NCBI GenBank assembly: GCA_023251435.1
Contig: JAHEYU010000066.1
Span: 1-32,582 of the forward strand
DNA length: 32,582 bases
Reading direction: 5' to 3'
Source: Bacteroidota bacterium
GTDB taxonomy: Bacteria > Bacteroidota > Bacteroidia > Bacteroidales > Prolixibacteraceae
The notes under the pieces: generated by a model
What the model saw: only the letters and a program-made list of their open reading frames with translations
The model's database searches: none
Told to the model about the DNA's origin: nothing
Shown here: positions 2,942-23,190 of the stretch, piece by piece
How positions within the stretch are numbered: position 1 is the stretch's first letter
How the letters are laid out: each line of letters starts with the position of its first letter
Translations under genes and position numbers: made by a program

Positions 2942-5900
2942 ATGAAAAAACATCAAATCATCTTTTTAAACACTCTCTTATTGGTTTTTCAATTTTCTAT
3001 AGCTACGGCACAATTAAAATCGAATAAAGCAAATTTTTCTAAATTAGAATCGGGGTTTAAAACGACACCTGACAGCATCCAAACCACTGTGTATTGGTAC
3101 TGGATGTCTGATAATATTTCGAAAGAAGGTGTAAAAAAAGATCTTCATGCCATGAAAAGAGTAGGGATAAACCGTGCATTTATTGGCAATATTGGTGGTT
3201 ATGGAACTCCTTATGGCTCTGTGAAAATTTTTAGCGACCAATGGTGGGAAATAATACATACAGCGCTTAAAACAGCTACCGAATTAAATATTGAAATTGG
3301 GATTTTCAACAGTCCGGGTTGGAGTCAATCCGGTGGCCCCTGGGTTAAGGATGAGCAATCGATGCGTTATTTAAATTCGTCGGAAATAAAAGTGACTGGA
3401 CCACAAAAACTGAGTAAAAAACTCATTGCTCCACACGAACATTTTCAGCGAGTAAGTGTAATTGCGTACAAAGATCCTACTTTTTCAGCAAAAACATACA
3501 GTTCGTTACAGCCGAAAGTCAGTTCGGTACCCAAGTTAGAGGGAGTAGATAAACTTGTTGATGGTGATACCTCCACAGTTGCTGGACTTAAAAACAACAA
3601 ACCACTTACGCTAACTTTTGAAACAAAAGAAAAAGCCACAGTTCGCAGTATTATCATTCATACAGCTGCTAATAAACAAATAATTGTTAATGCTGAACTT
3701 TTTGTGAAAGATGGTTCAAAACTCCATTTGTTAAAGAGATTTGAAATTAATCGAAGTAAATTTAGCTTTCAGGTTGGGTTCGAGCCTAATGCTCCTATTG
3801 TTGTTTCGCTGCCAGAAACAAAATCAACAACTTATCAATTAGTAATTGCAGATATTACAATCCCCGGAGCACTTGCCGAGATTGAACTTTCGGAAACGCC
3901 GAAATTGGAACGTTATCCAGAGAAGTCGTTTGCAAAAATGTTTCAGACACCACTGCCTTATTGGAAAGAGTATATGTGGGAGTCGCAACCAAAAATTTCA
4001 AAGAAATTAGCAATAGAGCCAAAAAGCGTTATCGACATTACCAAACACCTTTCGGCTGATGGCAGATTGAATTGGTCGGTACCAAGTGGAAATTGGGTAA
4101 TCATGCAAACGGGTATGACAAATACAGGTGTTACCAACGGACCAGCATCGCCCGAAGCAACAGGTTTGGAAACTGACAAGATGAGTAAAGAGCATATTGC
4201 AGCTCATTTCGATGCTTTTATGGGAGAAATTATTCGTAGAATACCTGCTGCCGACCGCAAAACATGGAAAGTGGTGGTGCAAGACAGCTACGAAACTGGT
4301 GGGCAGAATTGGACCGATGGATTAACGGAAGAGTTTACAGATAAATATGGATATAGTCCGCTGCCTTTTCTTCCTGCTTTGAAAGGAAATGTTGTAGGAA
4401 GCCGTGACCAATCCGACCGTTTTCTTTGGGATTTACGTCGCTTGGTAGCCGACAAAGTATCCTACGATTATGTAGGCGGTTTGCGCGACGTAAGTCATAA
4501 ACATGGACTTACCACATGGCTCGAAAATTATGGACACTGGGGTTTTCCCGGAGAGTTTCTTCAATACGGTGGACAATCCGATGAAATTGCTGGTGAATTT
4601 TGGAGCGAAGGCGAATTGGGTGATATTGAAAACCGTGCAGCATCTTCTTGCGCACATATCTATGGCAAAACGAAAGTTTCTGCCGAATCGTTTACTTGTG
4701 GTGGAATGGCTTATTCTCGCTATCCTGCCACAATGAAACAGCGTGGTGATCGCTTTTTTACCGAAGGTATAAACAACACTCTGTTACATGTTTTCATTCA
4801 GCAACCTTACGAAATAGCGCCTGGTGTAAATGCTATTTTTGGTAACGAATTTAACCGGCACAACACTTGGTTTAACCAGATGGATATGTTTGTGCAATAC
4901 TTGAAACGAACCAACTTTATGCTTCAACAAGGTAATTATGTGGCAGAAGTGGCTTATTTCATTGGTGAAGATGCTCCCAAAATGACGGGAGTTTGCGACC
5001 CTGCTTTACCTCAGGGTTATTCGTTCGATTACATTAATGCGGAGGTTATTCATACACGAGTAAGCGTAAAAGATGGAAAATTGGTATTGCCCGATGGAAT
5101 GACTTACAGCATGTTGGTACTACCAAAACTTGAAACCATTCGTCCTGAATTGTTGGCAAAAATTAAAGAGTTGGTATTGCAAGGTGCTGTGGTGCTTGGA
5201 CCAAAACCCACCTCATCGCCAAGTTTGAAAGGTTACCCGAAAGCCGATGCGCAAGTAAAGAAAATGGCTGATGAACTTTGGGGAAAAGTGGATGGTGTGA
5301 AAGTAAAATCGGCAAAAGTAGGCAAAGGCATGATACTGTCGGGAATGGAAATGCAGGAAGCGCTTGATTTAATAGGAATTTTGCCTGATTTTAAATTGGC
5401 CAAAAACGACTCCACTCTTTTTATTCATAGAACAGTTGCTGAAGGCGAAATTTATTTTGTTTCCAATCAATCAAACAAAACAATCAGCATTTCTCCCGAA
5501 TTTAGAGTAAAAGGTAAAAGTCCCGAATTATGGGATGCTGTAGCCGGTACTAAACGCGATTTACCTGCTTACAAACAAACCGAAAAAACAACTATTGTTC
5601 CTTTAAAATTGGAGGCTTATGAAAGTCAGTTTATAATTTTCCGAAAAAATGCCGGAACGCCTTCAAACTTTGATGTTGAAGCTAATTTTCCTATTGGAAA
5701 AACGTTGGTCGAATTGAACGAAAACTGGACAGTGAGTTTCGATAATGCCATTCGTGGGCCAAAAAAACCTGTTGAATTAAAAAGACTTATCGACTGGACT
5801 TTATCTTCAAACGACAACATTAAATATTATTCAGGAACAGCTATTTATAGCAAAAATGTTCAATTGACAGAGAGGCTAATGGGTGGAAAAGTATTATTGA

Positions 5901-6187
5901 ATACAGGTAAACTTACTTCTATGGCTAAAGTAAAAGTTAACGGCGTGGATGTAGGAGGCGTGTGGACTGCTCCGTGGCAGGTTGATATTAGTTCGGCAAT
6001 AAAGTCGGGAAATAATACTATTGAAATCTCGGTGGTAAACAATTGGATGAATCGTTTGATTGGTGATTTGAAATTACCAGAAAACGAACGCCCAACATGG
6101 ACTTCGGTTGTTCCATATAAAGCAGATAGTCCTTTACAGCCTTCAGGATTGTTTGGGCCGGTTAAAATAATACAAATCAATTTGTAA
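2942..6187 (+). CDS. GH106 alpha-L-rhamnosidase
   Basis: This is a 1081-residue secreted protein (signal peptide about residues 1-23, ending ATAQ), a normal length for GH106. The N-terminal barrel begins VYWYWMSDNISKEGVKKDL and continues with GIFNSPGWSQSGGPWV, both typical of the family. The segments QDSYETGGQNWTDG (Glu451), TTWLENYGHWG (Glu528), DEIAGEFWSEGE (Glu548-556) and VSAESF (Glu582) carry conserved-looking carboxylates. From memory of the Bacteroides enzyme, Glu451, Glu552 and Glu582 have about the spacing of its catalytic and calcium-ligand residues. The C-terminal part (about 920-1080) is a GH2-like jelly roll ending in LQPSGLFGPVKI. GH106 removes terminal alpha-L-rhamnose from pectic or other rhamnosylated glycans. 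It lies 42 bp upstream of the GH43 gene. Confidence 0.88.
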   Translation: MKKHQIIFLNTLLLVFQFSIATAQLKSNKANFSKLESGFKTTPDSIQTTVYWYWMSDNISKEGVKKDLHAMKRVGINRAFIGNIGGYGTPYGSVKIFSDQWWEIIHTALKTATELNIEIGIFNSPGWSQSGGPWVKDEQSMRYLNSSEIKVTGPQKLSKKLIAPHEHFQRVSVIAYKDPTFSAKTYSSLQPKVSSVPKLEGVDKLVDGDTSTVAGLKNNKPLTLTFETKEKATVRSIIIHTAANKQIIVNAELFVKDGSKLHLLKRFEINRSKFSFQVGFEPNAPIVVSLPETKSTTYQLVIADITIPGALAEIELSETPKLERYPEKSFAKMFQTPLPYWKEYMWESQPKISKKLAIEPKSVIDITKHLSADGRLNWSVPSGNWVIMQTGMTNTGVTNGPASPEATGLETDKMSKEHIAAHFDAFMGEIIRRIPAADRKTWKVVVQDSYETGGQNWTDGLTEEFTDKYGYSPLPFLPALKGNVVGSRDQSDRFLWDLRRLVADKVSYDYVGGLRDVSHKHGLTTWLENYGHWGFPGEFLQYGGQSDEIAGEFWSEGELGDIENRAASSCAHIYGKTKVSAESFTCGGMAYSRYPATMKQRGDRFFTEGINNTLLHVFIQQPYEIAPGVNAIFGNEFNRHNTWFNQMDMFVQYLKRTNFMLQQGNYVAEVAYFIGEDAPKMTGVCDPALPQGYSFDYINAEVIHTRVSVKDGKLVLPDGMTYSMLVLPKLETIRPELLAKIKELVLQGAVVLGPKPTSSPSLKGYPKADAQVKKMADELWGKVDGVKVKSAKVGKGMILSGMEMQEALDLIGILPDFKLAKNDSTLFIHRTVAEGEIYFVSNQSNKTISISPEFRVKGKSPELWDAVAGTKRDLPAYKQTEKTTIVPLKLEAYESQFIIFRKNAGTPSNFDVEANFPIGKTLVELNENWTVSFDNAIRGPKKPVELKRLIDWTLSSNDNIKYYSGTAIYSKNVQLTERLMGGKVLLNTGKLTSMAKVKVNGVDVGGVWTAPWQVDISSAIKSGNNTIEISVVNNWMNRLIGDLKLPENERPTWTSVVPYKADSPLQPSGLFGPVKIIQINL

Positions 6188-6229: not shown

Positions 6230-7573
6230 ATGAAGAAGTTGAAAATCATTTTGTTGCTGTTTTTTGCATGTACACTAACATTTTCGCAAAATCCTATTTG
6301 TCCTCCGGGATTGAATATTGCCGATCCTACGGCTCGGGTTTGGAAAGATGGTAAGTTATATGTGTATGGATCGCGCGATGAAAGTCTGGATTATTACTGC
6401 TCGTACGATCATTGGGTGCTCTCATCAAGTGATTTGATTAACTGGGAATACACCCCAAATGTATTTGCCTCGAAAGGCAAATACGATCAGATTCCGTGGA
6501 ACGATCAAGCACTTTATGCACCGGATGCAATGTACAGAAATGGAAAATACTACTTATATTATTGTCAGTCCGGAGGACAGGAAGGTGTAGCTACAAGTAA
6601 CTCCCCTACCGGACCGTTTACGAACCCAAAAGAGATCTATCTGAAAAATAAAAATCAGATTGATCCGGCAGTTTTTATCGACGACGACGGTCAGGCTTAT
6701 TACTTATGGGGTCAATTTCAGGCAAAAATTGCGAAGCTGAAACCTAACATGACAGAGATTGATACAACCACTATTGTAGATAATTTAATTACCGAAAAAG
6801 AACACTTTTTTCACGAAGGTGGATACATGGTAAAACGCAACGGCATTTACTATTTTATTTACGCCGATATGAGTCGAAAAGGAATGCCAACTTGTATTGG
6901 TTACGCAACTTCAAGGTCGCCATTAGGTCCATTCAAATACGGTGGTGTAATCGTAGATAATGATGGTTGCGACCCTGCAAATTGGAACAATCACGGTTCT
7001 ATTGTTGAATTCAAAGGAAAGTGGTATGTATTTTATCATCGCACTACCAATGGTGTAATAAATTCACGTAAAGCCTGTATCGAACCTATCAATTTCAATC
7101 AAGACGGAAGCATTAACGAAGTGGAAATGACTTCGCAGGGAGCTGGAAAACCACTTGATGCTTTTTCTAAGATCGAAGCAGAACGTACTTGTCTTATGTT
7201 CGGGAATATTCGAATTGAGTATTTGAGTTTTGACGAAACAAATCTTCTTAACCCATCGAATAACGACCAATTAGGGAAAATCAAGAATAAAGATTGGGCG
7301 GCATATAAATACATTGATTTTGGAGCTGGAGCAAAAACGGTAACAGTTTGTGTGGCACCAGGAGCAAAGCCCGGAAAAATTCAGTTTAAATTGGATAATG
7401 TATGGGGCGCACCAATTGGAACACTCGATGTACCAGGAGGAGGCGATGGAAAAACCTTCAAGACCTTATCAACAAATATCAGCTTAGCAAAAGGTGTGCA
7501 TTCACTCTACATCGATTTTACAGCTCACGAAAATGAGTCGTTTAATGTGGATTGGTTTGAATTTAAAAAGTAG
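6230..7573 (+). CDS. GH43 glycosidase with C-terminal CBM6-like module
   Basis: This 447-residue protein has a signal peptide (MKKLKIILLLFFACTLTFSQ). The five-bladed propeller carries the GH43 triad: base Asp32 in NIADPTARV, pKa modulator Asp145 in QIDPAVFIDDDG, and acid Glu196 in FHEGGYM. APDAMYRNGKYYLYY is the typical second-blade signature. Residues about 310-447 form a CBM6-like beta-sandwich (starts FSKIEAER, ends FNVDWFEFKK). GH43 members cleave alpha-L-arabinofuranosides, beta-xylosides or beta-1,3-galactans; the architecture alone does not decide which. It sits between the GH106 and GH2 genes with gaps of 42 and 52 bp, which suggests a joint operon. Confidence 0.9.
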   Translation: MKKLKIILLLFFACTLTFSQNPICPPGLNIADPTARVWKDGKLYVYGSRDESLDYYCSYDHWVLSSSDLINWEYTPNVFASKGKYDQIPWNDQALYAPDAMYRNGKYYLYYCQSGGQEGVATSNSPTGPFTNPKEIYLKNKNQIDPAVFIDDDGQAYYLWGQFQAKIAKLKPNMTEIDTTTIVDNLITEKEHFFHEGGYMVKRNGIYYFIYADMSRKGMPTCIGYATSRSPLGPFKYGGVIVDNDGCDPANWNNHGSIVEFKGKWYVFYHRTTNGVINSRKACIEPINFNQDGSINEVEMTSQGAGKPLDAFSKIEAERTCLMFGNIRIEYLSFDETNLLNPSNNDQLGKIKNKDWAAYKYIDFGAGAKTVTVCVAPGAKPGKIQFKLDNVWGAPIGTLDVPGGGDGKTFKTLSTNISLAKGVHSLYIDFTAHENESFNVDWFEFKK

Positions 7574-7625: not shown

Positions 7626-10100
7626 ATGAATAAATCTTTTTTGTCATATCTTTTTTCTTTACTCATTTTGGGGGTGTTTAATTCTCATCTATTTGCTCAG
7701 ATAGATGAGAATGTATTCCGAAATACAACGGGAGTTAAAGCAAAATTATCTTCTGAATCCATTATGGATGAGAAAATAAATTTCAATACAAATTGGAAAT
7801 TTCAGTTGGGAGAATTACCCGGATTTCATCTTCCAAATTACAACGATAACAATTGGCGTACACTTGATGTTCCCCACGATTGGTCAATAGAAGGAAAATT
7901 CGACGAGCAAAATCCTGCTGGCGCTTCAGGTGGATTCCTCCCTACAGGAATTGGTTGTTACCGCAAACACTTTGTAATGCCCGAAGGATCAAAAGGGAAA
8001 CGGATAAAAATTAGGTTCGATGGTGTTTATATGAAATCATCGGTTTTTCTGAATGGCGTTTTTCTGGGAAACAGACCGTATGGATTCAGTACGTTCGAAT
8101 ATGACCTTACTCCTCATCTTAAATACGAAAATGCGGAAAACATATTAGCTGTTGAAGTGGATAACTCTTTGCAACCAAGTTCGCGTTGGTACACAGGCTC
8201 AGGCATTAACAGGAATGTGTATTTAATAATCACCGAACAGCAGCATTTTAAGTCGTTCGGAACTTTCATCCGTACCGATAAGTTAACGGCAAATAGCGCC
8301 GTTGTTAAAATTGACTGCAAGGTTGTTTCCAACCAATATGCTGAAAGTGAATCGGTAAAGTTTCAGCGTTTTCCTGAAGATGTTACACGGAAAGTAAAAC
8401 CATCAAAAATTGTGGTAGTACTAAAAAATGCCAAAGACGAAGTGGTAAAGGAAGTAAGCACTAATCAACCTTTAAGCGACTATTCAGAACTTGAGGCTCA
8501 GTTAGTACTAAATGTTGAAAATCCAATTCTTTGGTCTGACAAAACCCCTTATCTCTACAAAATGGAATTGCAGTTGTGGATTGACGGAAAATTAACAGAT
8601 ACAGAACAACATCGCATTGGAATCCGTAAAATAGAATTCAACAATAATCGGGGGATGCTTGTAAATGGCGAAAAAGTTATTGCTAAAGGAGTGTGCCTGC
8701 ATAAAGATGCCGGTTCGTTCGGAACAGCTGTGCCAAAAGATGTTTGGCGGTATCGGTTACAAAAATTAAAAGCTTTGGGTTGTAATGCTATACGTAAGCA
8801 TGGGACGGTTGACCCTGTTTTTATTGATTTATGCGACGAAATGGGTTTTTATTTTATGGCCGAAGCATTTGATGAATGGGACAAAACATGGGAATATGGT
8901 TATTCGGAAGATTCGTGGGGAAAAGTGCCAAACGGCTACAATAAATATTTTAAACAATGGGCTGAAACCGATTTAAAGGACATGGTGAAACGGGAAAGAA
9001 ATCATCCTTCTGTATTTATGTATTCAGTTGGGAACGAGATGCCCAATCAGCGCTATTCCGACGGACCAAAAACCCTCAAAATGTTGATGGATTGGGCGAA
9101 GGAAGAGGATAAAACCCGACCGGTAATTGCAGCCTGCGATTGGGCTCCATGGGCTAATAAATCAGGTTTCATGGACACAATGGATATTGCAGGGTATAAT
9201 TATCCCGACAGGTATTTCAAAAAACATTACGCAGAGGAACATGCAGCTCACCCCGACAGAATTCTGTTAGGAACAGAGAACTACCTCACGCTCGAAAACT
9301 GGATTATGGTACGCGATAATCAGTATGTAGTAGGTTTGTTTTTATGGGCTGGTATCGATTACCTTGGCGAAGCTTTGCAATGGCCACGCCGTGGTTGGGA
9401 ATGGGGTTTAATTGATATTGCCGGCTTCGAAAAGAGTGTATATTATTACTGGAAGGCATTTTGGTCGGAAAAACCAATGGCACATATTGCAGTAAATCTC
9501 AAAGAGAAAGACAAATTTGAGTGGAGGAGTTATAACATAGCTTCGCACTGGAATTTCGCAAAAAATGATGTGGACACAGTTTTTGTTTACAGCAACACCG
9601 AAGAGGTGGAATTATTTCTAAATAAAAAAAGTCTTGGCAAAAAGCGCATTGACAAAAACACCTACGTGGCTCAATATCAAGTTAAATACCAAGAAGGTAC
9701 TTTGATGGCTGTGGCATACAATCAAGGAAAAAAAGTAAGCCAACATATTCTCAAAACAGCAGATAAACCGCAACAACTGGTATTAACTCCTGAAAAAGAA
9801 ACAGTAGAATTATCAAAAGGAGAGTTGATATTTATTCCAATTGAAATAGCGGACAAAAATGGAGTTCGCTGCCCAAATGCCACCAATAACATTAAAATAT
9901 CAGTAGAAGGCGCGGGCGAATTGATTGGAATGGATAGCGGCAATCAGAATAGTCACGAGCTATACAAAATAGATAATCGGAATGCTTACGAGGGTCGGAT
10001 ATTGGTAACCATTAGACCTACTAAAGCTGGTAGTGTAACTGTGAAAGCAATTTCAGATAATCTAACAATAGGTGTTAAAACAATTAATATAATCAATTAA
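7626..10100 (+). CDS. GH2 beta-galactosidase-type enzyme
   Basis: This 824-residue secreted protein has a signal peptide of about 24 residues ending LFAQ. The domain order is that of GH2: jelly roll (about 50-210, with TLDVPHDWSIEGKF and GCYRKHF), an Ig-like domain (about 215-330), a TIM barrel (about 335-620), a DUF4982-like domain (from about 625, KPMAHIAV) and a last Ig-like domain (about 720-824). The acid/base is Glu471 in YSVGNEMPNQ and the nucleophile Glu551 in LLGTENYL. The most likely activity is exo-beta-galactosidase, but beta-glucuronidase and beta-mannosidase are related by the same scaffold. Its stop codon is 6 bp from the start of the decayed GH43-like remnant, so the operon once continued there. 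Confidence 0.9.
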   Translation: MNKSFLSYLFSLLILGVFNSHLFAQIDENVFRNTTGVKAKLSSESIMDEKINFNTNWKFQLGELPGFHLPNYNDNNWRTLDVPHDWSIEGKFDEQNPAGASGGFLPTGIGCYRKHFVMPEGSKGKRIKIRFDGVYMKSSVFLNGVFLGNRPYGFSTFEYDLTPHLKYENAENILAVEVDNSLQPSSRWYTGSGINRNVYLIITEQQHFKSFGTFIRTDKLTANSAVVKIDCKVVSNQYAESESVKFQRFPEDVTRKVKPSKIVVVLKNAKDEVVKEVSTNQPLSDYSELEAQLVLNVENPILWSDKTPYLYKMELQLWIDGKLTDTEQHRIGIRKIEFNNNRGMLVNGEKVIAKGVCLHKDAGSFGTAVPKDVWRYRLQKLKALGCNAIRKHGTVDPVFIDLCDEMGFYFMAEAFDEWDKTWEYGYSEDSWGKVPNGYNKYFKQWAETDLKDMVKRERNHPSVFMYSVGNEMPNQRYSDGPKTLKMLMDWAKEEDKTRPVIAACDWAPWANKSGFMDTMDIAGYNYPDRYFKKHYAEEHAAHPDRILLGTENYLTLENWIMVRDNQYVVGLFLWAGIDYLGEALQWPRRGWEWGLIDIAGFEKSVYYYWKAFWSEKPMAHIAVNLKEKDKFEWRSYNIASHWNFAKNDVDTVFVYSNTEEVELFLNKKSLGKKRIDKNTYVAQYQVKYQEGTLMAVAYNQGKKVSQHILKTADKPQQLVLTPEKETVELSKGELIFIPIEIADKNGVRCPNATNNIKISVEGAGELIGMDSGNQNSHELYKIDNRNAYEGRILVTIRPTKAGSVTVKAISDNLTIGVKTINIIN

Positions 10101-10477: not shown

Positions 10478-13400
10478 ATGAAATCACAATTATTAGCGAT
10501 GCTAGTATTCATTGCAAGCATTTACGGGCTGAAAGCTCAAACATGGGACTTTACTTCCGGAGTTGAAAACTGGAATTGGGGTCAAGCAAATTGTGCAATA
10601 TCTCAAGCATCTGGCAGTCTAGTTATTACCTCCGATGGAGTTGGAAATGCAAGTTTTGGAATTACCGACCTAAATCTGCCTGCTACAAATGTGGATTTAA
10701 TGGTTTTAAATCTGAAAAACCAGTCGAACGCCCCTTATTTTGCAATAAATCTCTGGGTATTAATACCTAATGGGAGTGGTGGATATACAGAAAAAATTCG
10801 GTCATTTTATCCTTCAATTACATCAAATAGTGCAAATTATAAATTAAATACGATTAATTTGTCAAGCTCTATCGGCGATTTCTCCCATACTTGGAAGATA
10901 AACAGAATTAGGATTGATGCTGTTGCTCAAACAAATACAAGTGTTATTTCGATTGATTATATTAAATTCGTTGATTTTACTACACCTGATGCACCCACAA
11001 ACGTAGTTGCCACACCTGGAAATGAAAAAGCCTCGGTTGCTTTCATAGCACCTGCATTCACTGGAGGGTTACCAATTCTAAACTATACAGTTACTTCAAA
11101 TCCTGGCAATTTTACGGCAACGGGTACAACAAGCCCAATAGTAATTACAGGATTAACTAACGGAACTGCTTACACATTTACTGTTACCGCCATTAATGCA
11201 GCAGGTACCGGAGTTACAAGTACTCCATCTGTATCAGTTACACCAAAAGCTAGTATTGGAAGTGTTACTTTTTCTACACCTGGTATCATGAGCAGTTACC
11301 GACCGGGAAGCAATGCAGCCTATGTGGTTGCATTAGATAACAATGTTGCTGCTTTGACGAGCAAAGTAGAGTTTTATAAGGATAACGTGAAAATTGCTGA
11401 AGATTTAACAGCACCTTACGAGCATACAATTACTAACGTACAATCAGGATATTACAAAATACATGCTGCTGCAATTAATTCAGCGGGTGAAACATTGGCT
11501 ATTACAAATACCAGCGAACTTTTTGTAGGAACATCAAAAGTTGGGGTAAGACCATTACCCCGTGGCGATGTGTACGATTTTGACAGGGCAATAGATAAGA
11601 ATAATCCTGGTGGATATTTTGCAGATTATAAAGGCCAATATCCTTTTGTGGCAAGTCATACCGATGTTCTTACACATCATGACTATGGCGAAAGTTTTGA
11701 AGGTGATTTCCGAACAAAAAAAACCTTCTTTGAACATTATCTGCCTTTTGACAGTCAATGGATTGATACTAACCCTCAAACCAATCCGCTTATAGCAAAA
11801 ATTTGCGTTCTCGAAAAATACGGTGTTGAACTGGAACATATTATTATATCCCGGGAAGGAAAACTATATGGTAAACCCTCTTTCACCTGGGGTTCTCATC
11901 CATTAGAGTGGCGTCTTCTTTTTCAAAGAGATATCGATGATTATCGCAAGTTATTTAAAGATGCCTATGCCGCTGGTATTACCAAACATGACAATTACAA
12001 GTTAATTCAGTTGTTAGCGGAGCCTGCTGTTTTTTATAATGATATTGCTGCACGTAACATTATAAAAAATATGGATGGGGTTTGCTACGAGCTTCATCAG
12101 TATAACGTTCACTGGCCTTTGGAAACCGGGAAAAGTAAAGATTTGGAGTCTATGAGTGAGGCAATAAGATGGACTTTGGCTAACAATCTGGATTATGTTT
12201 TGTATTATGGTCCCTGGAGGTCAACTACCGATCCTGTATATTATAAAGATGCACCAAAAGATTGGATTCAGAAATATTGGGCAGCCGGTATGCCTAAGTT
12301 TTCTGACAAAATGTACTACTATACTAACAATTTCCCTCATGAGGAAAGTGCGAAAACCCCTGTGGGACCAGAAACAAATCCCGATTCACATACAGGATTT
12401 GTAAAATGGCTGATTGAACAAGCAGGCCGACAAACCCCACTTGCGGATGTGAAACGTATTCCAAATATGGGATGGGATTTTGATAAGAGTATAGAAAGGT
12501 GGGGAAGCATTAAAGATAATTGTACCCCTTCATGGAGCCTCGGTAGCTTACTAATAAAACCTATAGCGGCTGGTTCAGTTTCCGTTGGAGTTAAAAAACA
12601 CAACTTCCATATGAAAGATGTTGAGGACTTTTATGTTCGCATAAAAAATGAATCCCCAGCGACAAATATTGTAGTTAATCTCTGGATTGCAATGCCTGGT
12701 AGTCAGACCCAGGAAATAAAAACCTTCAATTTGCCAATTGTGTCAAACAGTACAGAATACAAAACCTATCATGTGGATTTAACCAACGCAATTTCAGGCT
12801 TTTCAACTACATGGCGCATACAAAATATAATGTTTATGATTCCTAATCAAACGCTTTCTTCAATGATTAGTTTTGATTACATTAAATTCTTGATTGATTT
12901 ACCATTGACAGAATCAATTGTTATCGAAGGTAGTAATTTAATTGATGGCATTGGAGTAAAGCAACAATATACAGCAACAAGTTTTCCCAATTTAGCTTCA
13001 AGTAATGTCTCTTGGTCAGTAAATAACACGAATATTGCAACCATCGATGCTAATACCGGTCTACTAACAACTGTAGCAGTTGGTGAAGTAACCATTACCG
13101 CAACCTCACAGGATGGGTCAGGAGTAAAAGGGGAGAAAACGGTATTAATAACAAATACTGTTTATGCCACGTCTATTTCAATAGTCGGCCCATCAGTTAT
13201 TGATTGTCTTGGAAAACAAGTTCAGTTATCGATTGCCTTTCAGCCAGAATCGACAACAAATAAGGCTGTAAAATATACTGTTGATAAGCCTTCTGTTGCC
13301 ACTGTCGATGAAAATGGCTTACTGACTGCTGTTTCAATGGGTGTAGTAAGAGTTATTGCTGAAACTATGGAGGGACCCAAATTATCTACACAGTTAGTAA

Positions 13401-13718: not shown

Positions 13719-14614
13719 ATGACAGAACGAAATCAATTTAAAGGAGTGAACTCGATTAAATTTCATAATGCATTTTCTTCCGATGATGACTGTTAACCTT
13801 ATCTTGCTGATATTAAGTGGCAAGATTCCGACTATAAATGCAAAAATGTAGCCATACAAAATATTATAAAGGTGTAAAGCCTTATTCAAGACGGTGTATG
13901 AAATGTAAATATGATGAAAGCCCCAACGCCGGGACGATGTTCGACAAGTGTAAATTTCCTTTGCACCTGACTTTCCACATAGCATTCAAGATAAGCACCA
14001 AAAAGAAAGGCATGTCGTCATTGGAATTGTCCCAGGAATTTGAATTACGTCAAATGACTTGTTGGGAATTTAGATGGAAAATACAACAAGCCATTCAGAG
14101 CAGCAAACAACATCCAATCAATCGTACTGTTCATGTCGATGAATTCTTTATTGGCGGAGAAGAAGGCAAACGAGGTCGAAGCAAAGGGGACAAAAAGCTT
14201 GTCGTTGTCGCTCTCGAAATTGTCGAGGGCGGTGTTGGACGAGCATATGCTCAATGTATCGACAATGCTTCTGCTGTTTCCTTCCGGCCATCCTTCGAGA
14301 CATACATCAGTAAGGACTCAAAAGTCATAACCGATGAGTGGAAAAGGTATATTCCTTTGAAAAAGATCTATCCGAATCTGGAACAAATCAAATCTAAAAA
14401 CGGGAAAAGCTTTCAAGATATACATATTCACATTATGAATTTGAAAGGATGGCTGCGAGGGATTCATCATCATTGCAGTAAAGAACGCCTTCAGGGATAC
14501 CTTGACGAGTACCATTTTAGGTACAATAGACGCTCTAATATGGATACAATATTCGATTCACTCATAAAAAAGATGGTTTTGAATAATCCTATTCGTTTAT
14601 ATTCAAATAATTAA
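13719..14614 (+). pseudogene. IS1595-family transposase, frameshifted
   Basis: The intact 3' frame (13838-14614, 258 residues) has the zinc-ribbon remnant (CSHTKYYKG, RRCMKCKYDES) and the DDE-type catalytic core: Asp101 in VHVDEFFIGG, Asp166 in VITDEWKRY and Glu224 in YLDEYHFRYNRR, counted from the Met at 13838. The original start was probably the ATG at 13719. From there the protein is interrupted by a frameshift near 13739-13742, an in-frame TAA at 13793-13795 (between DDDC and PYLADIKW), and a one-base loss in the A run at 13842-13846 just before CSHTKYY. The broken N-terminus removes the first zinc-ribbon cysteine pair. The family call is secure. Confidence 0.85.
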
Positions 14615-14657: not shown

Positions 14658-16052
14658 ATGAAAACCCGAAAACCCAATATTCTCATCATAGTCTCCGATC
14701 AGCAGGGGATTGACACCATTGCGGCCTACAAAGACTTTTTTAAACATGAAGCCAATTTGTGTCATTGGTTGAAAACTCCCAATTTCGACAGGATGGTTGC
14801 CAATGGGTACTCTTTCCTGGAATCGCACAGCACAAACCCGGTGTGCTGTCCTGCCCGTTCCAGTCTTTTTACCGGACGGTACAGTACCGAAACCGGCGTA
14901 ACTTTCAACAATGTCGGGATCGACAAGAACGTTCCCAACATGGGCCAGTGGTTTGGAGATAAATCTGAATACAACAGGGTTTATTGTGGAAAATGGCATG
15001 CCGGAGGACAATGGAATTACCCCGATGTTGAGGGAGAGCGGAAAATTCCGGGATTTGAAACAATCCCTGTAGGAGTAGCCGGAACAGGCGATTTTAATGA
15101 TTATCAGGTCGCCGGTGCAATGAAAGGCTACATCATGAATTACAAGGAGGACAAACCTTTTCTTGCAGTGGCAGGTCTAATGAACCCGCATGATATTTGT
15201 TACTGGACACCGCCGCTTCATGGGAACAGACTGGTGCCCAAAACTGATCTTTTCAATCTTGGAAATTCGCTACCTCCTTTGCCTCCCAACTTTGATTTTC
15301 AATTTAAAGATCCATCACCTAAACAGCAGGTGAAATTTTCTAAATCAGAGTGGCAAAACTACCTGTTTGATTATTGCCGGATGATTGAAAAGCTCGATGC
15401 TGACCTTGGGCGTTTGCTCGATGCGGTCGATTCGCGCAACGATGAAACACTCGTCCTATTTACTTCTGATCATGGCGAAGGCTCTGCCCGCCACAAAAGA
15501 GTTCAAAAGTGGCATCCGTTCGAGCAGTCGGTGAAAGTTCCGTTTATTGCATACATGTCCGGACATGTTAAGTCGAATGTCATTGACCAAAATCACATCA
15601 TATCAGGAATTGACCTAATGTCAACGGTGTGCGATTATGCCGGTATTCCTGCTCCTCCAAACTGCATGGGCCGCAGCCTTAAAAGTTTAATCGAAACGGG
15701 AGAGACGAACGATAAAATGGATGTTGCCTTTGCCGAATTTCAGCACACCGGTCGTGTCGTGCGAAAAGGTGATTTTAAATATGTGAAAATCTATGAGTTT
15801 TCAGGGAATCCGGATCAACCTTTTGTCCGTATTGAAGATGGCCAGCCTGAAAAATTTCAGCCTTGTGCCGGAAGCAGCCGATACAAGACCCTGCCTGATA
15901 AATTGCTGTTCAACATTAAAAATGATCCATGGGAATTAACCGATTTGTCAGCCGATCCGGCTTACGCCAGAAAAATAGCAGAATTGGACCATTTGCTGGC
16001 CGCAGAATGGGAAAAGAAAATGGTATCCGGAACGCATTTCGATAGAAACTAA
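14658..16052 (+). CDS. S1-family sulfatase
   Basis: This 464-residue formylglycine-dependent sulfatase carries the activation motif Cys63-Cys-Pro-Ala-Arg67 (NPVCCPARSSLFTGR), in which Cys63 would be converted to formylglycine. Metal-ligand segments are NILIIVSDQQG (Asp14) near the N-terminus and FTSDHGEG (Asp271, His272). GKWHAGG and GLMNPHD are further alkaline-phosphatase superfamily motifs. It would remove sulfate esters from the polysaccharide. No signal peptide is visible: the protein starts MKTRKPNILIIVSDQQG, directly on the first core strand, unlike almost every other protein here. The frame is closed by a TAA at 14643-14645, so no longer in-frame start is possible. The IS end 18 bp upstream may have removed a leader, or the enzyme may be cytoplasmic. 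The next gene follows after 13 bp. Confidence 0.92.
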   Translation: MKTRKPNILIIVSDQQGIDTIAAYKDFFKHEANLCHWLKTPNFDRMVANGYSFLESHSTNPVCCPARSSLFTGRYSTETGVTFNNVGIDKNVPNMGQWFGDKSEYNRVYCGKWHAGGQWNYPDVEGERKIPGFETIPVGVAGTGDFNDYQVAGAMKGYIMNYKEDKPFLAVAGLMNPHDICYWTPPLHGNRLVPKTDLFNLGNSLPPLPPNFDFQFKDPSPKQQVKFSKSEWQNYLFDYCRMIEKLDADLGRLLDAVDSRNDETLVLFTSDHGEGSARHKRVQKWHPFEQSVKVPFIAYMSGHVKSNVIDQNHIISGIDLMSTVCDYAGIPAPPNCMGRSLKSLIETGETNDKMDVAFAEFQHTGRVVRKGDFKYVKIYEFSGNPDQPFVRIEDGQPEKFQPCAGSSRYKTLPDKLLFNIKNDPWELTDLSADPAYARKIAELDHLLAAEWEKKMVSGTHFDRN

Positions 16053-17031: not shown

Positions 17032-19176
17032 ATGCTCCAAATTAGAAATGTATTCCGAAATTATTATCTGATAGTCTTTGCCATTTTCGAGATCCTGTCA
17101 ATGAATGTTCAGGCTCAATCCGGAGGTTCTGTTTTCGAACTGGATGGCAATCAGGTGAAACAGCTTAAAGCCGAACGACAATCCAATGGAGCCTGGCAAT
17201 TGGAAACTACAGGCAAAGATCCCTGGATTTATACCCAACCTTTATCGCAAGCCATTGGCAGCGATGCTAAAATCCTGTCTTTTCAGTATTTCTGTCCCAA
17301 AGGATTAGATCATTTGCAGGTTTATTTCGGGCCTGCAATTCGCGAAGAAAACTCCAAATTGGTTCGGCGGATTGGCCCTTCCGAAGGTTGGGTGGGTTTT
17401 ACCATCGACTTGAGCAAGGAGATGAAAGCATGGGGGAAAACAGGAGATCTCCTCCGAATAGACCTTGGAAGTCGGGCCGATGTCAACATCCAGATCCGGA
17501 ATTTAATGCTGCGCCCGATGAGCGAAAGAGAAAAGGAAATTGCTGCCAACCGCGAAGAAAAAGTGCAAAGGGAAGCCAAAATGGAAGCTCGTTTGAAAGC
17601 CTACCTTGAAACGAATTATACTTCCGGAATTACTGAAGTAGAGGTAGAGGAATCGAAAATTTCGGTGGAGGGAAAAATAACTGCTTCTGGGGCGGTTTAT
17701 CTGTGCGAAGTGGCTCCTTATCAGGATGTAACCGAAGAAACTGTTTTCGAAACTGCCATTTTGCTGAAATCAAAAAAGTTTGAACAGAACCTGGATCGTT
17801 TTGTAAACAGAAAGGGTATTAACTACGATCGGGTGCTTTCCAAGTGGGTACTGGCCGAAAAAACAGCAACAGGCTATCAATTGCTTTCTCACGCCCGCTA
17901 TCCTGATGAAATTAAAGCAAAATACAGCTATCCGAAAGAAGTTGCCAAAGGCCGCAAAGGCATTGGTGGTTTCAGTGTGAACCGGGGGCATCAGGAAGAT
18001 TTGGATGAACTGAATGCGACCAGTGCAACAGTCAATATCTGGTTTGCGAAATTCATGTTCACCAAACCTGCAACCGGAAGGATGGAGCATGTTTACAACG
18101 GGAAATCCTATTATTTCGGCGAAAAGCAGGTGGCTATGTTCGATTCAACTTTTCGCGTTACTGCCCGGAAAGGAATTGTTACTGCGGCTATTCTGCTGGT
18201 TGATAAAGCGGAAACGTGTCCCGATCCTGAAATCGGACGGCTGTTACAACATCCGGATATGGATCCGGCAGGCATTTACAGCATGCCCAACATGACAAAT
18301 CCTGCCAGTGTGGATTGTTATGCCGCCGCGCTCGATTTTCTGGCCAGCCGGTACAGCCGTGCCGATAAGAAATACGGACGCTGCAATCACTGGATCATGC
18401 ACAATGAGGTGGATGCTGGTTGGGAATGGACCAATATGGGCGAAAAAACAGCTTTGATCTTTATGGATACCTACATCAAATCGATGCGTATGTGCTATGC
18501 CATTGCCCGAAAATACAACCCGCACAGCGAAGTCTTTGTTACCCTGACCCATTATTGGGCGTGGACGTCGCACCCACGGTTTTACCCTTCCAAAGTACTG
18601 ATGGAAATGCTGATTCAATATTCGAAAACAGAAGGCGATTTTGAATGGGCCATGGCGCATCATCCTTATCCGCAATCGTTGATGGAGCCTAAAACCTGGC
18701 TCGATAAACAAGTAGATTTTACCTTCAACTCTCCGCTCATCACCTTTGCAAATCTTGAAGTATTGAATGCATGGATTAAACTTCCGGAGGTACTTTATAA
18801 AGGGAAAACAAAGCGCACACTTTGGCTTTCAGAGAATGGTACCAACTCCAGAACCTACTCGGAAGAACACCTGAAAGAGCAGGCGGCAGGTTTTGCCTAT
18901 ACCTGGAAGAAAATGAAAGTATTGGATGGAATTGACGGTTTCCAATGGCACAATTGGTTCGATAACCGTGGTGAAGGTGGATTACGCATCGGGCTGCGCC
19001 GCTTCCCCGATGACGAACAGGATCCGGGCGGCGCAAAACCTGTTTGGTATGTGTTCAAAGCTGCCGATACTGAAAATGAAAATGCTGTTTTCGATCAATA
19101 CAAAGAAATGATTGGGATTAAAGATTGGACGGAAGTTCAGTACAAAGGCGAAATTGTTGACGGGAAGAATAAGTAA
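17032..19176 (+). CDS. DUF5722-like TIM-barrel putative glycosidase
   Basis: This 714-residue secreted protein has a signal peptide of about 28 residues (ends NVQAQ). The N-terminal region (about 30-165) looks like a carbohydrate-binding sandwich. Residues about 165-190 are highly charged and helical (SEREKEIAANREEKVQ). The rest is a beta domain plus TIM barrel resembling DUF5722. Candidate catalytic residues of a retaining clan A enzyme are Glu459 in IMHNEVDAGWEW (acid/base) and Glu601 in LWLSENGTNS (nucleophile); both sit at ends of predicted strands as in GH5/GH39 enzymes. Other barrel motifs are AMAHHPYPQ and GFQWHNWFDN. The substrate is unknown. The gap to the next gene is 29 bp. Confidence 0.75.
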   Translation: MLQIRNVFRNYYLIVFAIFEILSMNVQAQSGGSVFELDGNQVKQLKAERQSNGAWQLETTGKDPWIYTQPLSQAIGSDAKILSFQYFCPKGLDHLQVYFGPAIREENSKLVRRIGPSEGWVGFTIDLSKEMKAWGKTGDLLRIDLGSRADVNIQIRNLMLRPMSEREKEIAANREEKVQREAKMEARLKAYLETNYTSGITEVEVEESKISVEGKITASGAVYLCEVAPYQDVTEETVFETAILLKSKKFEQNLDRFVNRKGINYDRVLSKWVLAEKTATGYQLLSHARYPDEIKAKYSYPKEVAKGRKGIGGFSVNRGHQEDLDELNATSATVNIWFAKFMFTKPATGRMEHVYNGKSYYFGEKQVAMFDSTFRVTARKGIVTAAILLVDKAETCPDPEIGRLLQHPDMDPAGIYSMPNMTNPASVDCYAAALDFLASRYSRADKKYGRCNHWIMHNEVDAGWEWTNMGEKTALIFMDTYIKSMRMCYAIARKYNPHSEVFVTLTHYWAWTSHPRFYPSKVLMEMLIQYSKTEGDFEWAMAHHPYPQSLMEPKTWLDKQVDFTFNSPLITFANLEVLNAWIKLPEVLYKGKTKRTLWLSENGTNSRTYSEEHLKEQAAGFAYTWKKMKVLDGIDGFQWHNWFDNRGEGGLRIGLRRFPDDEQDPGGAKPVWYVFKAADTENENAVFDQYKEMIGIKDWTEVQYKGEIVDGKNK

Positions 19177-22212: not shown

Positions 22213-23190
22213 ATGAAACACCTGAAGAATTGCAAAACGATGATTTTGATCTTCCTTTTAACAACCACTGTATCTCTTGCACAAGAGAACCGGTCTAAAG
22301 TGGGCATCAGGCCATATCCCCGCGACAGTGCTCATGAAATGACTGGAGGCGACAGGGTTGCCAATTGGAAGCCAGGCATAGGAAATTATGATGCCATGCT
22401 GAAAGCCGATGATTATACCGCCTTGCACATGGATGTGGTAAAAGGTTACAACGGTGTTTTTAAAACCAAACAACGCTTTTTTGAGCATTACATCCATCAG
22501 CAGGGAGGGAAATGGGTGGATACCAATCCGGAAACAAATAAGTTGGTGAAAACTATTCGCGATTACGAACAAAAAGGCACTGAAGTAAAACACATTATTA
22601 TTAGTCGTGAAGGCTGGTTGTATGATAAAGTCAATGGCGATACCGGACCAATTGCAGGTGATCCACGGATACTCCATCAAAGAGATGTTGATGAAACACG
22701 AAAAGTATTCAAAGATGCCTATGTTCTTGGCTTGATCAAAAACGACAACTACAAATTGATTCAGATGGTTGTTCATCCGGCTGTATTTCTCGATGACCCA
22801 CAAGCCAGAGAGATTATTAAAACCATGGATGGCATTTGCATTGAATCACATCAGTTTAACCGTTACTGGCCTTTGGGAAACGAAATTTCAAATCCTGAAG
22901 AAATTGCCCGTGGCGCCAAATGGGAGCTGGAACAAGGCATGGATTATATCTTCTATTACGGGCCTTACCAATTTAAAGGTTGTAGTACCTATACCGACTT
23001 TCTTGAGAGAGATTGGCTGAAAGTTTTTTGGGAAAAGGGCTTGCCAAAACACCATAAGAACATGTATTACTACCTAAACGCATTTCCGCATGCCTGTGGT
23101 AATACGAGGCCAGTTGGACCGGAATCAGACCCATATTCATACCTCGGATTTGCCAAATGGTTGATTCAGGAGCTAGAACAAGGAAAGTAG
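22213..23190 (+). CDS. Standalone KVG[IV]RP-domain protein, putative novel glycosidase-like enzyme
   Basis: This 325-residue secreted protein (signal peptide about 1-24, ends SLAQ) consists almost entirely of the domain found inside the T9SS protein. Shared segments in order are KVGIRPYPRD, FFEHY, WVDTNPET, HIIISREG, QRDVDE, RKVFKDAY, NDNYKLIQ, MDGICIESHQFNRYWPL, DYIFYYGP, MYYYLNAFPH and PVGPESDP. The succession of short hydrophobic strands followed by conserved polar residues suggests a TIM barrel. Candidate catalytic acids are Glu133 (SREG), Glu211 (IESHQ) and Glu304 (GPESDP). I recognise no named family. It lies between the PKD protein and the nucleoside-hydrolase-like gene, with gaps of 63 and 22 bp. 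The enzyme role is inferred. Confidence 0.8.
   Translation: MKHLKNCKTMILIFLLTTTVSLAQENRSKVGIRPYPRDSAHEMTGGDRVANWKPGIGNYDAMLKADDYTALHMDVVKGYNGVFKTKQRFFEHYIHQQGGKWVDTNPETNKLVKTIRDYEQKGTEVKHIIISREGWLYDKVNGDTGPIAGDPRILHQRDVDETRKVFKDAYVLGLIKNDNYKLIQMVVHPAVFLDDPQAREIIKTMDGICIESHQFNRYWPLGNEISNPEEIARGAKWELEQGMDYIFYYGPYQFKGCSTYTDFLERDWLKVFWEKGLPKHHKNMYYYLNAFPHACGNTRPVGPESDPYSYLGFAKWLIQELEQGK

Follow-up and report, generated by a model that had tools for sequence, protein, structure and literature searches.

An unnamed family of apparently exported, predicted barrel domains: candidate glycoside hydrolases of sulfated glycans

Results

Gene content of the window

The window analyzed here, the whole stretch of 32,582 nucleotides, is one whole contig (C45) of a Bacteroidota genome (5.7 Mb, 148 contigs). 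It carries two copies of the domain under study, one in a standalone protein and the other within a modular T9SS protein (Table 1), and a genome-wide search returned these two family matches only. The genes around them encode GH35 (cut at its 5' end), GH106, GH43-CBM6, GH2, sulfatase, DUF5722, weakly GH99-like, Sde182-like and GHL6 proteins.

Table 1. Positions of genes, domains and conserved Glu codons in the window (strand residue numbers in the remarks follow the 301-aa modeled construct)
Feature	Position	Strand	Remark
GH106 alpha-L-rhamnosidase family protein	2942..6187	+	Pfam PF17132, E 5.1e-237
GH43-CBM6 protein	6230..7573	+	Window locus annotation
GH2 protein	7626..10100	+	Window locus annotation
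Modular exported protein, 1065 aa	10478..13675	+	Pfam/NCBIfam
Module 1 of the T9SS protein	10541..10972	+	Putatively CBM-like, from its position; no Pfam name
Second domain copy, residues 354-648 of the T9SS protein	11537..12421	+	BLASTP
E460 codon, second copy	11855..11857	+	Counterpart of E133
E538 codon, second copy	12089..12091	+	Counterpart of E211
E632 codon, second copy	12371..12373	+	Counterpart of E304
Module 2 of the T9SS protein	12476..12919	+	Same kind as module 1; no Pfam name
Sulfatase	14658..16052	+	Pfam PF00884, E 1.6e-38
DUF5722 protein	17032-19176		E 2.3e-120
Weakly GH99-like protein, 612 aa	19206..21044	+	GH99 match, E 5e-4
Standalone family protein, 325 aa	22213..23190	+	Signal-peptide-like N terminus; domain at about residues 29-322
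E91 codon	22483..22485	+	Invariant in 57/57 core and 5/5 distant rows; in strand 63-69
E119 codon	22567..22569	+	Invariant; in a helix
E133 codon	22609..22611	+	Invariant; two residues past strand 100-107
E211 codon	22843..22845	+	Invariant; close to where strand 183-188 ends, with invariant H213 two residues on
E304 codon	23122..23124	+	Invariant; in the loop past the last strand

Both ORFs were confirmed as placed by the initial annotation, which had described the two copies as alignable from end to end. BLASTP bears this out: at 44% identity and 61% positives (E 5e-84), residues 28-320 of the standalone protein match residues 353-648 in the T9SS protein. All 13 shared motifs that the annotation had quoted were located in both proteins, and the three Glu that it had called collinear (E133/E211/E304 and E460/E538/E632) are Glu at all six positions.

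The T9SS protein contains, in order, a CBM-like module, an fn3 domain, a Big_7-like domain (Pfam/NCBIfam match just under the cut-off), the family domain, a second CBM-like module, two Big_2 domains and a T9SS sorting tail. Its C-terminus matches both PF18962 (Por_Secre_tail, E 5.1e-12) and the TIGR04183 sorting domain (39.2 bits, cut-off 23), marking the protein as T9SS cargo. The two CBM-like modules, which lie on either side of the family domain, are about 145 residues long each and share 37% identity. Stretches similar to them were seen again in another locus, L034.

An IS1595-type transposase ORF (13838-14614) stops 43 bases ahead of the sulfatase ORF, which begins without a hydrophobic N-terminal segment. 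Such a segment is present in 11 of the 15 sulfatases adjoining family members. The two closest relatives of the window sulfatase among these loci (L038 and L068) likewise lack it, so insertion of the transposase need not explain its absence. The weakly GH99-like protein, a candidate member of a GH99/GH195-like family, has relatives in L011, L013, L018 (three copies) and L096. BLAST relatives of the DUF5722 protein were found in L012 and L028, and a search of the open-licence PMC literature for the term DUF5722 returned no paper.

Searches against known families

The standalone protein gave only two Pfam matches, both below the cut-off (Agglutinin, E 0.023; Git3, E 0.098), and none in NCBIfam or among PDB sequences. 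When the 56 members that make up the profile A3 were scanned against Pfam and NCBIfam, none matched a family at E <0.01; the best sub-threshold matches were Agglutinin (E 0.018) and MPN214 (E 0.014), in three members each. A3 covers all but five of the 55 loci described below, the exceptions being L014 (on the same contig as L003) and the fragments L064, L065, L067 and L068. Searched against PDB sequences, A3 returned two matches, at E 0.4 and 0.78, each of them a designed Nanofitin fusion, and a wider profile of 28 rows, A7, returned none. No relatives were found in the viral contigs, phages and plasmids searched, and no description of the domain family was found in the open-licence PMC papers returned by the literature searches, judged by their titles and the starts of their abstracts. 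The domain thus represents a family that is unnamed in the Pfam, NCBIfam and PDB sequences searched, which upholds the initial annotation in its view that the motifs belong to no known family, for single proteins and for profiles alike.

Occurrence and ancestry

A scan of genome_contigs yielded 55 loci, mostly with titles of Verrucomicrobiota, Planctomycetota, Kiritimatiellae and Bacteroidota. Carriers are few: the family occurs in 3 of 140 genomes from the taxonomic family of the window (the window's genome counted) and in 1 of 395 genomes of its phylum, which is the window's genome itself. The phylum of Pelagicoccus (G544) gave 4 of 288 genomes, one by distant copies only, and the phylum of L054 (G549) gave 5 of 294, one as two fragments only; both of these samples were drawn around genomes already known to carry the family, the numerators include those genomes, and some of the matches are the already known L027, L031, L059 and L063.

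In a quick tree with SH-aLRT support only, the standalone copy falls in a nine-row clade with support 100, the eight other rows being 81-93% identical to it. The titles in this clade are Flavobacteriaceae, Cyclobacteriaceae, Reichenbachiellaceae, Bacteroidales and Akkermansiaceae. The last of these is L019, whose copy shares 81% identity with the standalone protein of the window and lies within an otherwise Bacteroidota clade. The spread of the clade suggests transfer or, for L019, a mis-binned contig. The module copy groups instead with L034 and L024 (support 99), both multidomain proteins with tails resembling the window's T9SS tail in a sequence comparison made without Pfam. A recent duplication inside the locus was rejected, since the two window copies fall in different clades of the quick tree; they look like separate, older lineages.

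A sister branch contains five more copies (L074, L075, L076, L080 and L083) in two genomes, G785 and G859, both of the order of Pontiella. L074 shares 18-26% identity with the core rows to which it was compared.

A hydrophobic 12-mer precedes the domain in 43 of the 44 single-domain members examined, by a crude test that is not a signal-peptide predictor, and a loosely lipobox-like motif is present in 13 of the 44. Together with its signal-peptide-like N terminus, this suggests that the standalone protein is exported.

Sulfatases near family members

The flanks of 41 loci contained 51 sulfatases, compared with an expectation of 12.5 based on the sulfatase density of each genome, where the background consists of first-look candidate counts (an upper bound) and the observed sulfatases were called with a profile made from these same loci. 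The 41 comprise all genome_contigs loci of at least 9 kb, with L014 dropped as it shares the contig of L003. A sulfatase lies next door to the family gene in 12 of the 41 loci (1.5 expected with strand ignored and one gene per kb assumed; tail 8e-9), a count in which L025, lacking a target ORF in the ORF list, was scored as not adjacent. At least one sulfatase is in view in 17 of the 41 (9.7 expected, tail 0.004), and none in the remaining 24. Both tail values assume independence among the loci, an assumption that does not hold for related ones. A subset of 25 loci, hand-picked after the neighbour table was seen, gave 46 sulfatases against 10.1 expected, with 9 of 25 adjacent; the other 16 loci were added later.

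A natural fusion is present in G859, in which a single ORF of 1439 aa contains the domain (residues 60-342) and a sulfatase (residues 593-1049). One dedicated sulfatase partner for the family was rejected, as the 15 adjacent sulfatases form 13 groups at 45% identity.

Several large proteins were seen at these loci. A 1197-aa ORF (L010:5077-8667) falls among the sulfatases by clustering and has a match to the GH78 profile as well, and L095:3334-7908 is a sulfatase-CBM-GH3 protein of 1525 aa. Two further kinds recur: L011:13968-17690 and L096:11538-15284 have accessory domains only (Pfam), and L010:12247-15147 and L028:9258-12575 have no Pfam match.

Rhamnosidases near family members

The initial annotation had proposed sulfated rhamno- or galacto-polysaccharides as assay substrates. 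The sulfated context agrees with the sulfatase counts. The rhamnose part fits 7 of the 12 Bacteroidota genomes (the window, G030, G062, L016, L018, L023 and L034), which have GH78 and/or GH106 near the family gene, whereas in the PVC core loci, which commonly have sulfatases, rhamnosidases are rare, with one GH78 profile match (L029) and weak GH106 matches in L051 and L053. The Bacteroidota stretches compared are of unequal length (3.6 kb to 72 kb); those with no rhamnosidase in the stretch read are L020, L021, L024 and, on short contigs, L015 and L017. SusC-like and SusD genes are present in L023.

In the sister branch, L093 has GH78 and GH106 on the same strand, with GH106 adjoining the family gene, and L095 has GH78. 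A GH78-like fragment ends locus L096, weak GH106 matches occur in L094 and L096, and neither family is in view in L092. Pfam confirmed GH78 in L007, L093 and L095 and GH106 in the window and L093; the other assignments rest on profiles built in this analysis.

In two Alistipes genomes (L020 and L021) the family member is lipoprotein-like and has quite different surroundings. The member in L020 follows a dihydroorotate dehydrogenase gene, and the same neighbour cluster is found in L021.

Predicted fold

An AlphaFold2 model of a 301-aa construct, computed with A3, reached pLDDT 93.8 and pTM 0.92. It contains strands at residues 5-8, 51-53, 63-69, 100-107, 158-162, 183-188, 220-225 and 260-264 of the construct, with helices between most of them and none between 53 and 63. 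At E <= 0.001 a Foldseek search of the PDB gave 37 matches, with 6.3e-6 as the best value. Among the best 50 rows, which from their names we take to be known barrel enzymes, TM did not exceed 0.57, with 8-13% identity. They are a mixture of barrels: pyruvate kinase (top row), ENGase (6kpl/6kpm), EndoS2, PdxJ, GH191 (9euz), GH26 (4zxo), GH1 (8kap) and aldolases, with two GH5 enzymes further down the list (E 1.4e-3). Against viral models, GH5-annotated phage proteins came out on top (E 1.3e-5). The model is thus that of a (beta/alpha) barrel closed by seven or eight strands, in line with the TIM barrel that had been guessed from the strand rhythm, and the Foldseek matches support a barrel fold and not any particular family.

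The Cordyceps endo-beta-N-acetylglucosaminidase (6kpl and 6kpm, E 1.2e-5 and 2.1e-5) is likewise a barrel, at TM 0.48-0.50 and 13% identity to the domain. We take both entries to be GH18, a family with the motif DxxDxDxE. A GH18-type enzyme is not supported, the motif being present in 0 of 56 rows.

Invariant residues

When the 57 core rows and 5 sister-branch rows are aligned jointly, 14 residues are invariant: E91, E119, E133, R152, E211, H213, W237, W268 and E304, each in 62 of 62 rows, together with three Gly, one Leu and one Pro. The conservation of the three Glu pointed out in the initial annotation thus extends to the distant sister branch, and their number is revised to five, out of 42 Asp/Glu in the 301-aa query. 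The invariance of H213 is partly by construction in the genome_contigs loci, because this residue lies within the peptide patterns by which they were retrieved; the five Glu lie outside those patterns. All five are also kept in the rows found by profile (L074, L075, L076, L078, L080 and L083).

E133 and E211 are, in the model, carboxylates at or just past the C-terminal ends of strands, and both are strictly conserved (62/62 rows). Their strands are separated by one strand (158-162). In clan GH-A the catalytic pair sits at the ends of strands 4 and 7, so the predicted layout is not that of GH-A. E119 is probably structural, given its position in a helix.

Strict conservation of charged residues over 62 rows, and the fact that most members are stand-alone proteins, argue against a carbohydrate-binding or otherwise non-catalytic barrel, to which the Agglutinin match below the cut-off (E 0.018) would point. 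We consider such a barrel highly improbable.

The main mechanistic rival to acid/base hydrolysis is a metal-dependent sugar enzyme with a barrel fold, of isomerase, epimerase or aldolase type, in which E133, E211, H213 and E304 would hold a divalent metal. The invariant E..ExH..E set could also bind metal, since it resembles what we take to be the metal ligands of sugar isomerases and epimerases of the xylose isomerase-like superfamily, and the Foldseek rows include pyruvate kinase at the top, HpaI aldolase and sulfofructosephosphate aldolase beside the glycosidases. However, no isomerase family appears in the Pfam matches of the 56 members, and the multimodular T9SS copy and the sulfatase fusion suit an enzyme acting on polysaccharide better than one acting on monosaccharides. 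We regard the metal enzyme as quite unlikely.

Another class of carbohydrate enzyme with a barrel fold, a polysaccharide lyase or an esterase, would also fit polysaccharide loci with sulfatases, some of which additionally encode heparinase II/III-like, BNR_4 or SASA esterase proteins. The invariants over 62 rows include one His and no Tyr, Lys or Ser, which would be an unusual set for such enzymes, yet this depends on the alignment: one of 9 rows lists three Tyr as invariant, unlike that of 62 rows. A lyase or esterase seems to us a shade less probable again than the metal enzyme.

Discussion

Comparison with known systems

Some CAZy families have no PDB entries, and the domain might belong, as a remote and so far unrecognised relative, to a CAZy family with neither a Pfam model nor a sequence relative in the PDB. 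We rate this as rather unlikely on the following evidence. GH168 and GH107 have PDB entries according to the portions of PMC11943901 consulted, and neither A3 nor A7 matched any of them, on the assumption that they are present in the copy searched; at this sensitivity the domain is then not a sequence relative of either family. The GH174 and GH187 enzymes listed in the same portions (PMC11943901) are 54-101 kDa, larger than the domain at an estimated 33 kDa or so.

The GH168 endo-1,3-fucanase FunA/Fun168A is described in the sections seen of PMC7401878 and PMC11943901 as having a signal peptide, a barrel, a sulfated polysaccharide substrate and the key residues D206/E264, with homologues in Bacteroidetes, Planctomycetes, Kiritimatiellaeota and Verrucomicrobia, among others. 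The present family shares with it a predicted barrel, a signal-peptide-like N terminus in the standalone copy, a sulfated-polysaccharide context and overlapping phyla. Membership in GH168 was rejected on the PDB searches above. So was membership in GH107, whose fucanases are, in the excerpted text of PMC11943901, modular enzymes with a barrel catalytic module, a sulfated substrate and Asp/His as key residues.

PbSulf1-GH195 of Polaribacter is a T9SS-exported tandem of sulfatase and hydrolase acting on sulfated mannan, in which GH195 is an endo-alpha-1,3-mannanase described as distantly related to GH99 (PMC13063451, in part). As in that system, the present locus is a sulfatase-containing Bacteroidota locus with T9SS export, and in one relative sulfatase and domain are fused. 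Unlike GH195, which was compared by its description only, the domain has no GH99 (PF16317) match, and the weakly GH99-like protein of the window is a different gene from those of the domain proteins.

Proposed function

We favor the view that the domain defines a new, unnamed family of exported barrels, which probably are glycoside hydrolases of a sulfated glycan, in Bacteroidota one containing rhamnose. The apparent export, the predicted barrel and the frequent sulfatase and rhamnosidase neighbours make it likely that the domain cuts a sulfated polysaccharide. A glycoside hydrolase is also the most economical reading of the barrel, the invariant carboxylates, the sulfatase fusion and neighbours, the T9SS-type copy and the rhamnosidase loci taken together.

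We infer hydrolysis, the substrate and the roles of the Glu residues as follows. Acidic residues at the C-terminal ends of the barrel strands, E133, E211 and possibly E304, would serve as the acid/base and as the nucleophile or base. The domain would cut a sulfated polysaccharide that is also processed by the accompanying sulfatases and, in many Bacteroidota, by GH78/GH106 rhamnosidases. The T9SS-type modular copy would act outside the cell, and the standalone copy would be periplasmic or secreted and perhaps directed at a different linkage.

A bolder version of this hypothesis, which we hold only tentatively and would not bet on, is that the domain is the founding family of a new GH clan, with E133 and E211 one strand apart, that cleaves a sulfated, rhamnose-containing backbone. 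The extracellular T9SS paralogue would then make the first cut and the periplasmic paralogue would take the oligosaccharides, with the enzyme's own sulfatase fused to it in the Pontiella relative.

Catalysis and substrate are directly testable, through the five invariant Glu and the sulfatase fusion. If the domain is a hydrolase, the finding would put a name to a family of Planctomycetota, Verrucomicrobiota, Kiritimatiellota and Bacteroidota that has no entry in current Pfam and NCBIfam, and would account for one step in the breakdown of sulfated polysaccharides, which are of importance to the marine carbon cycle.
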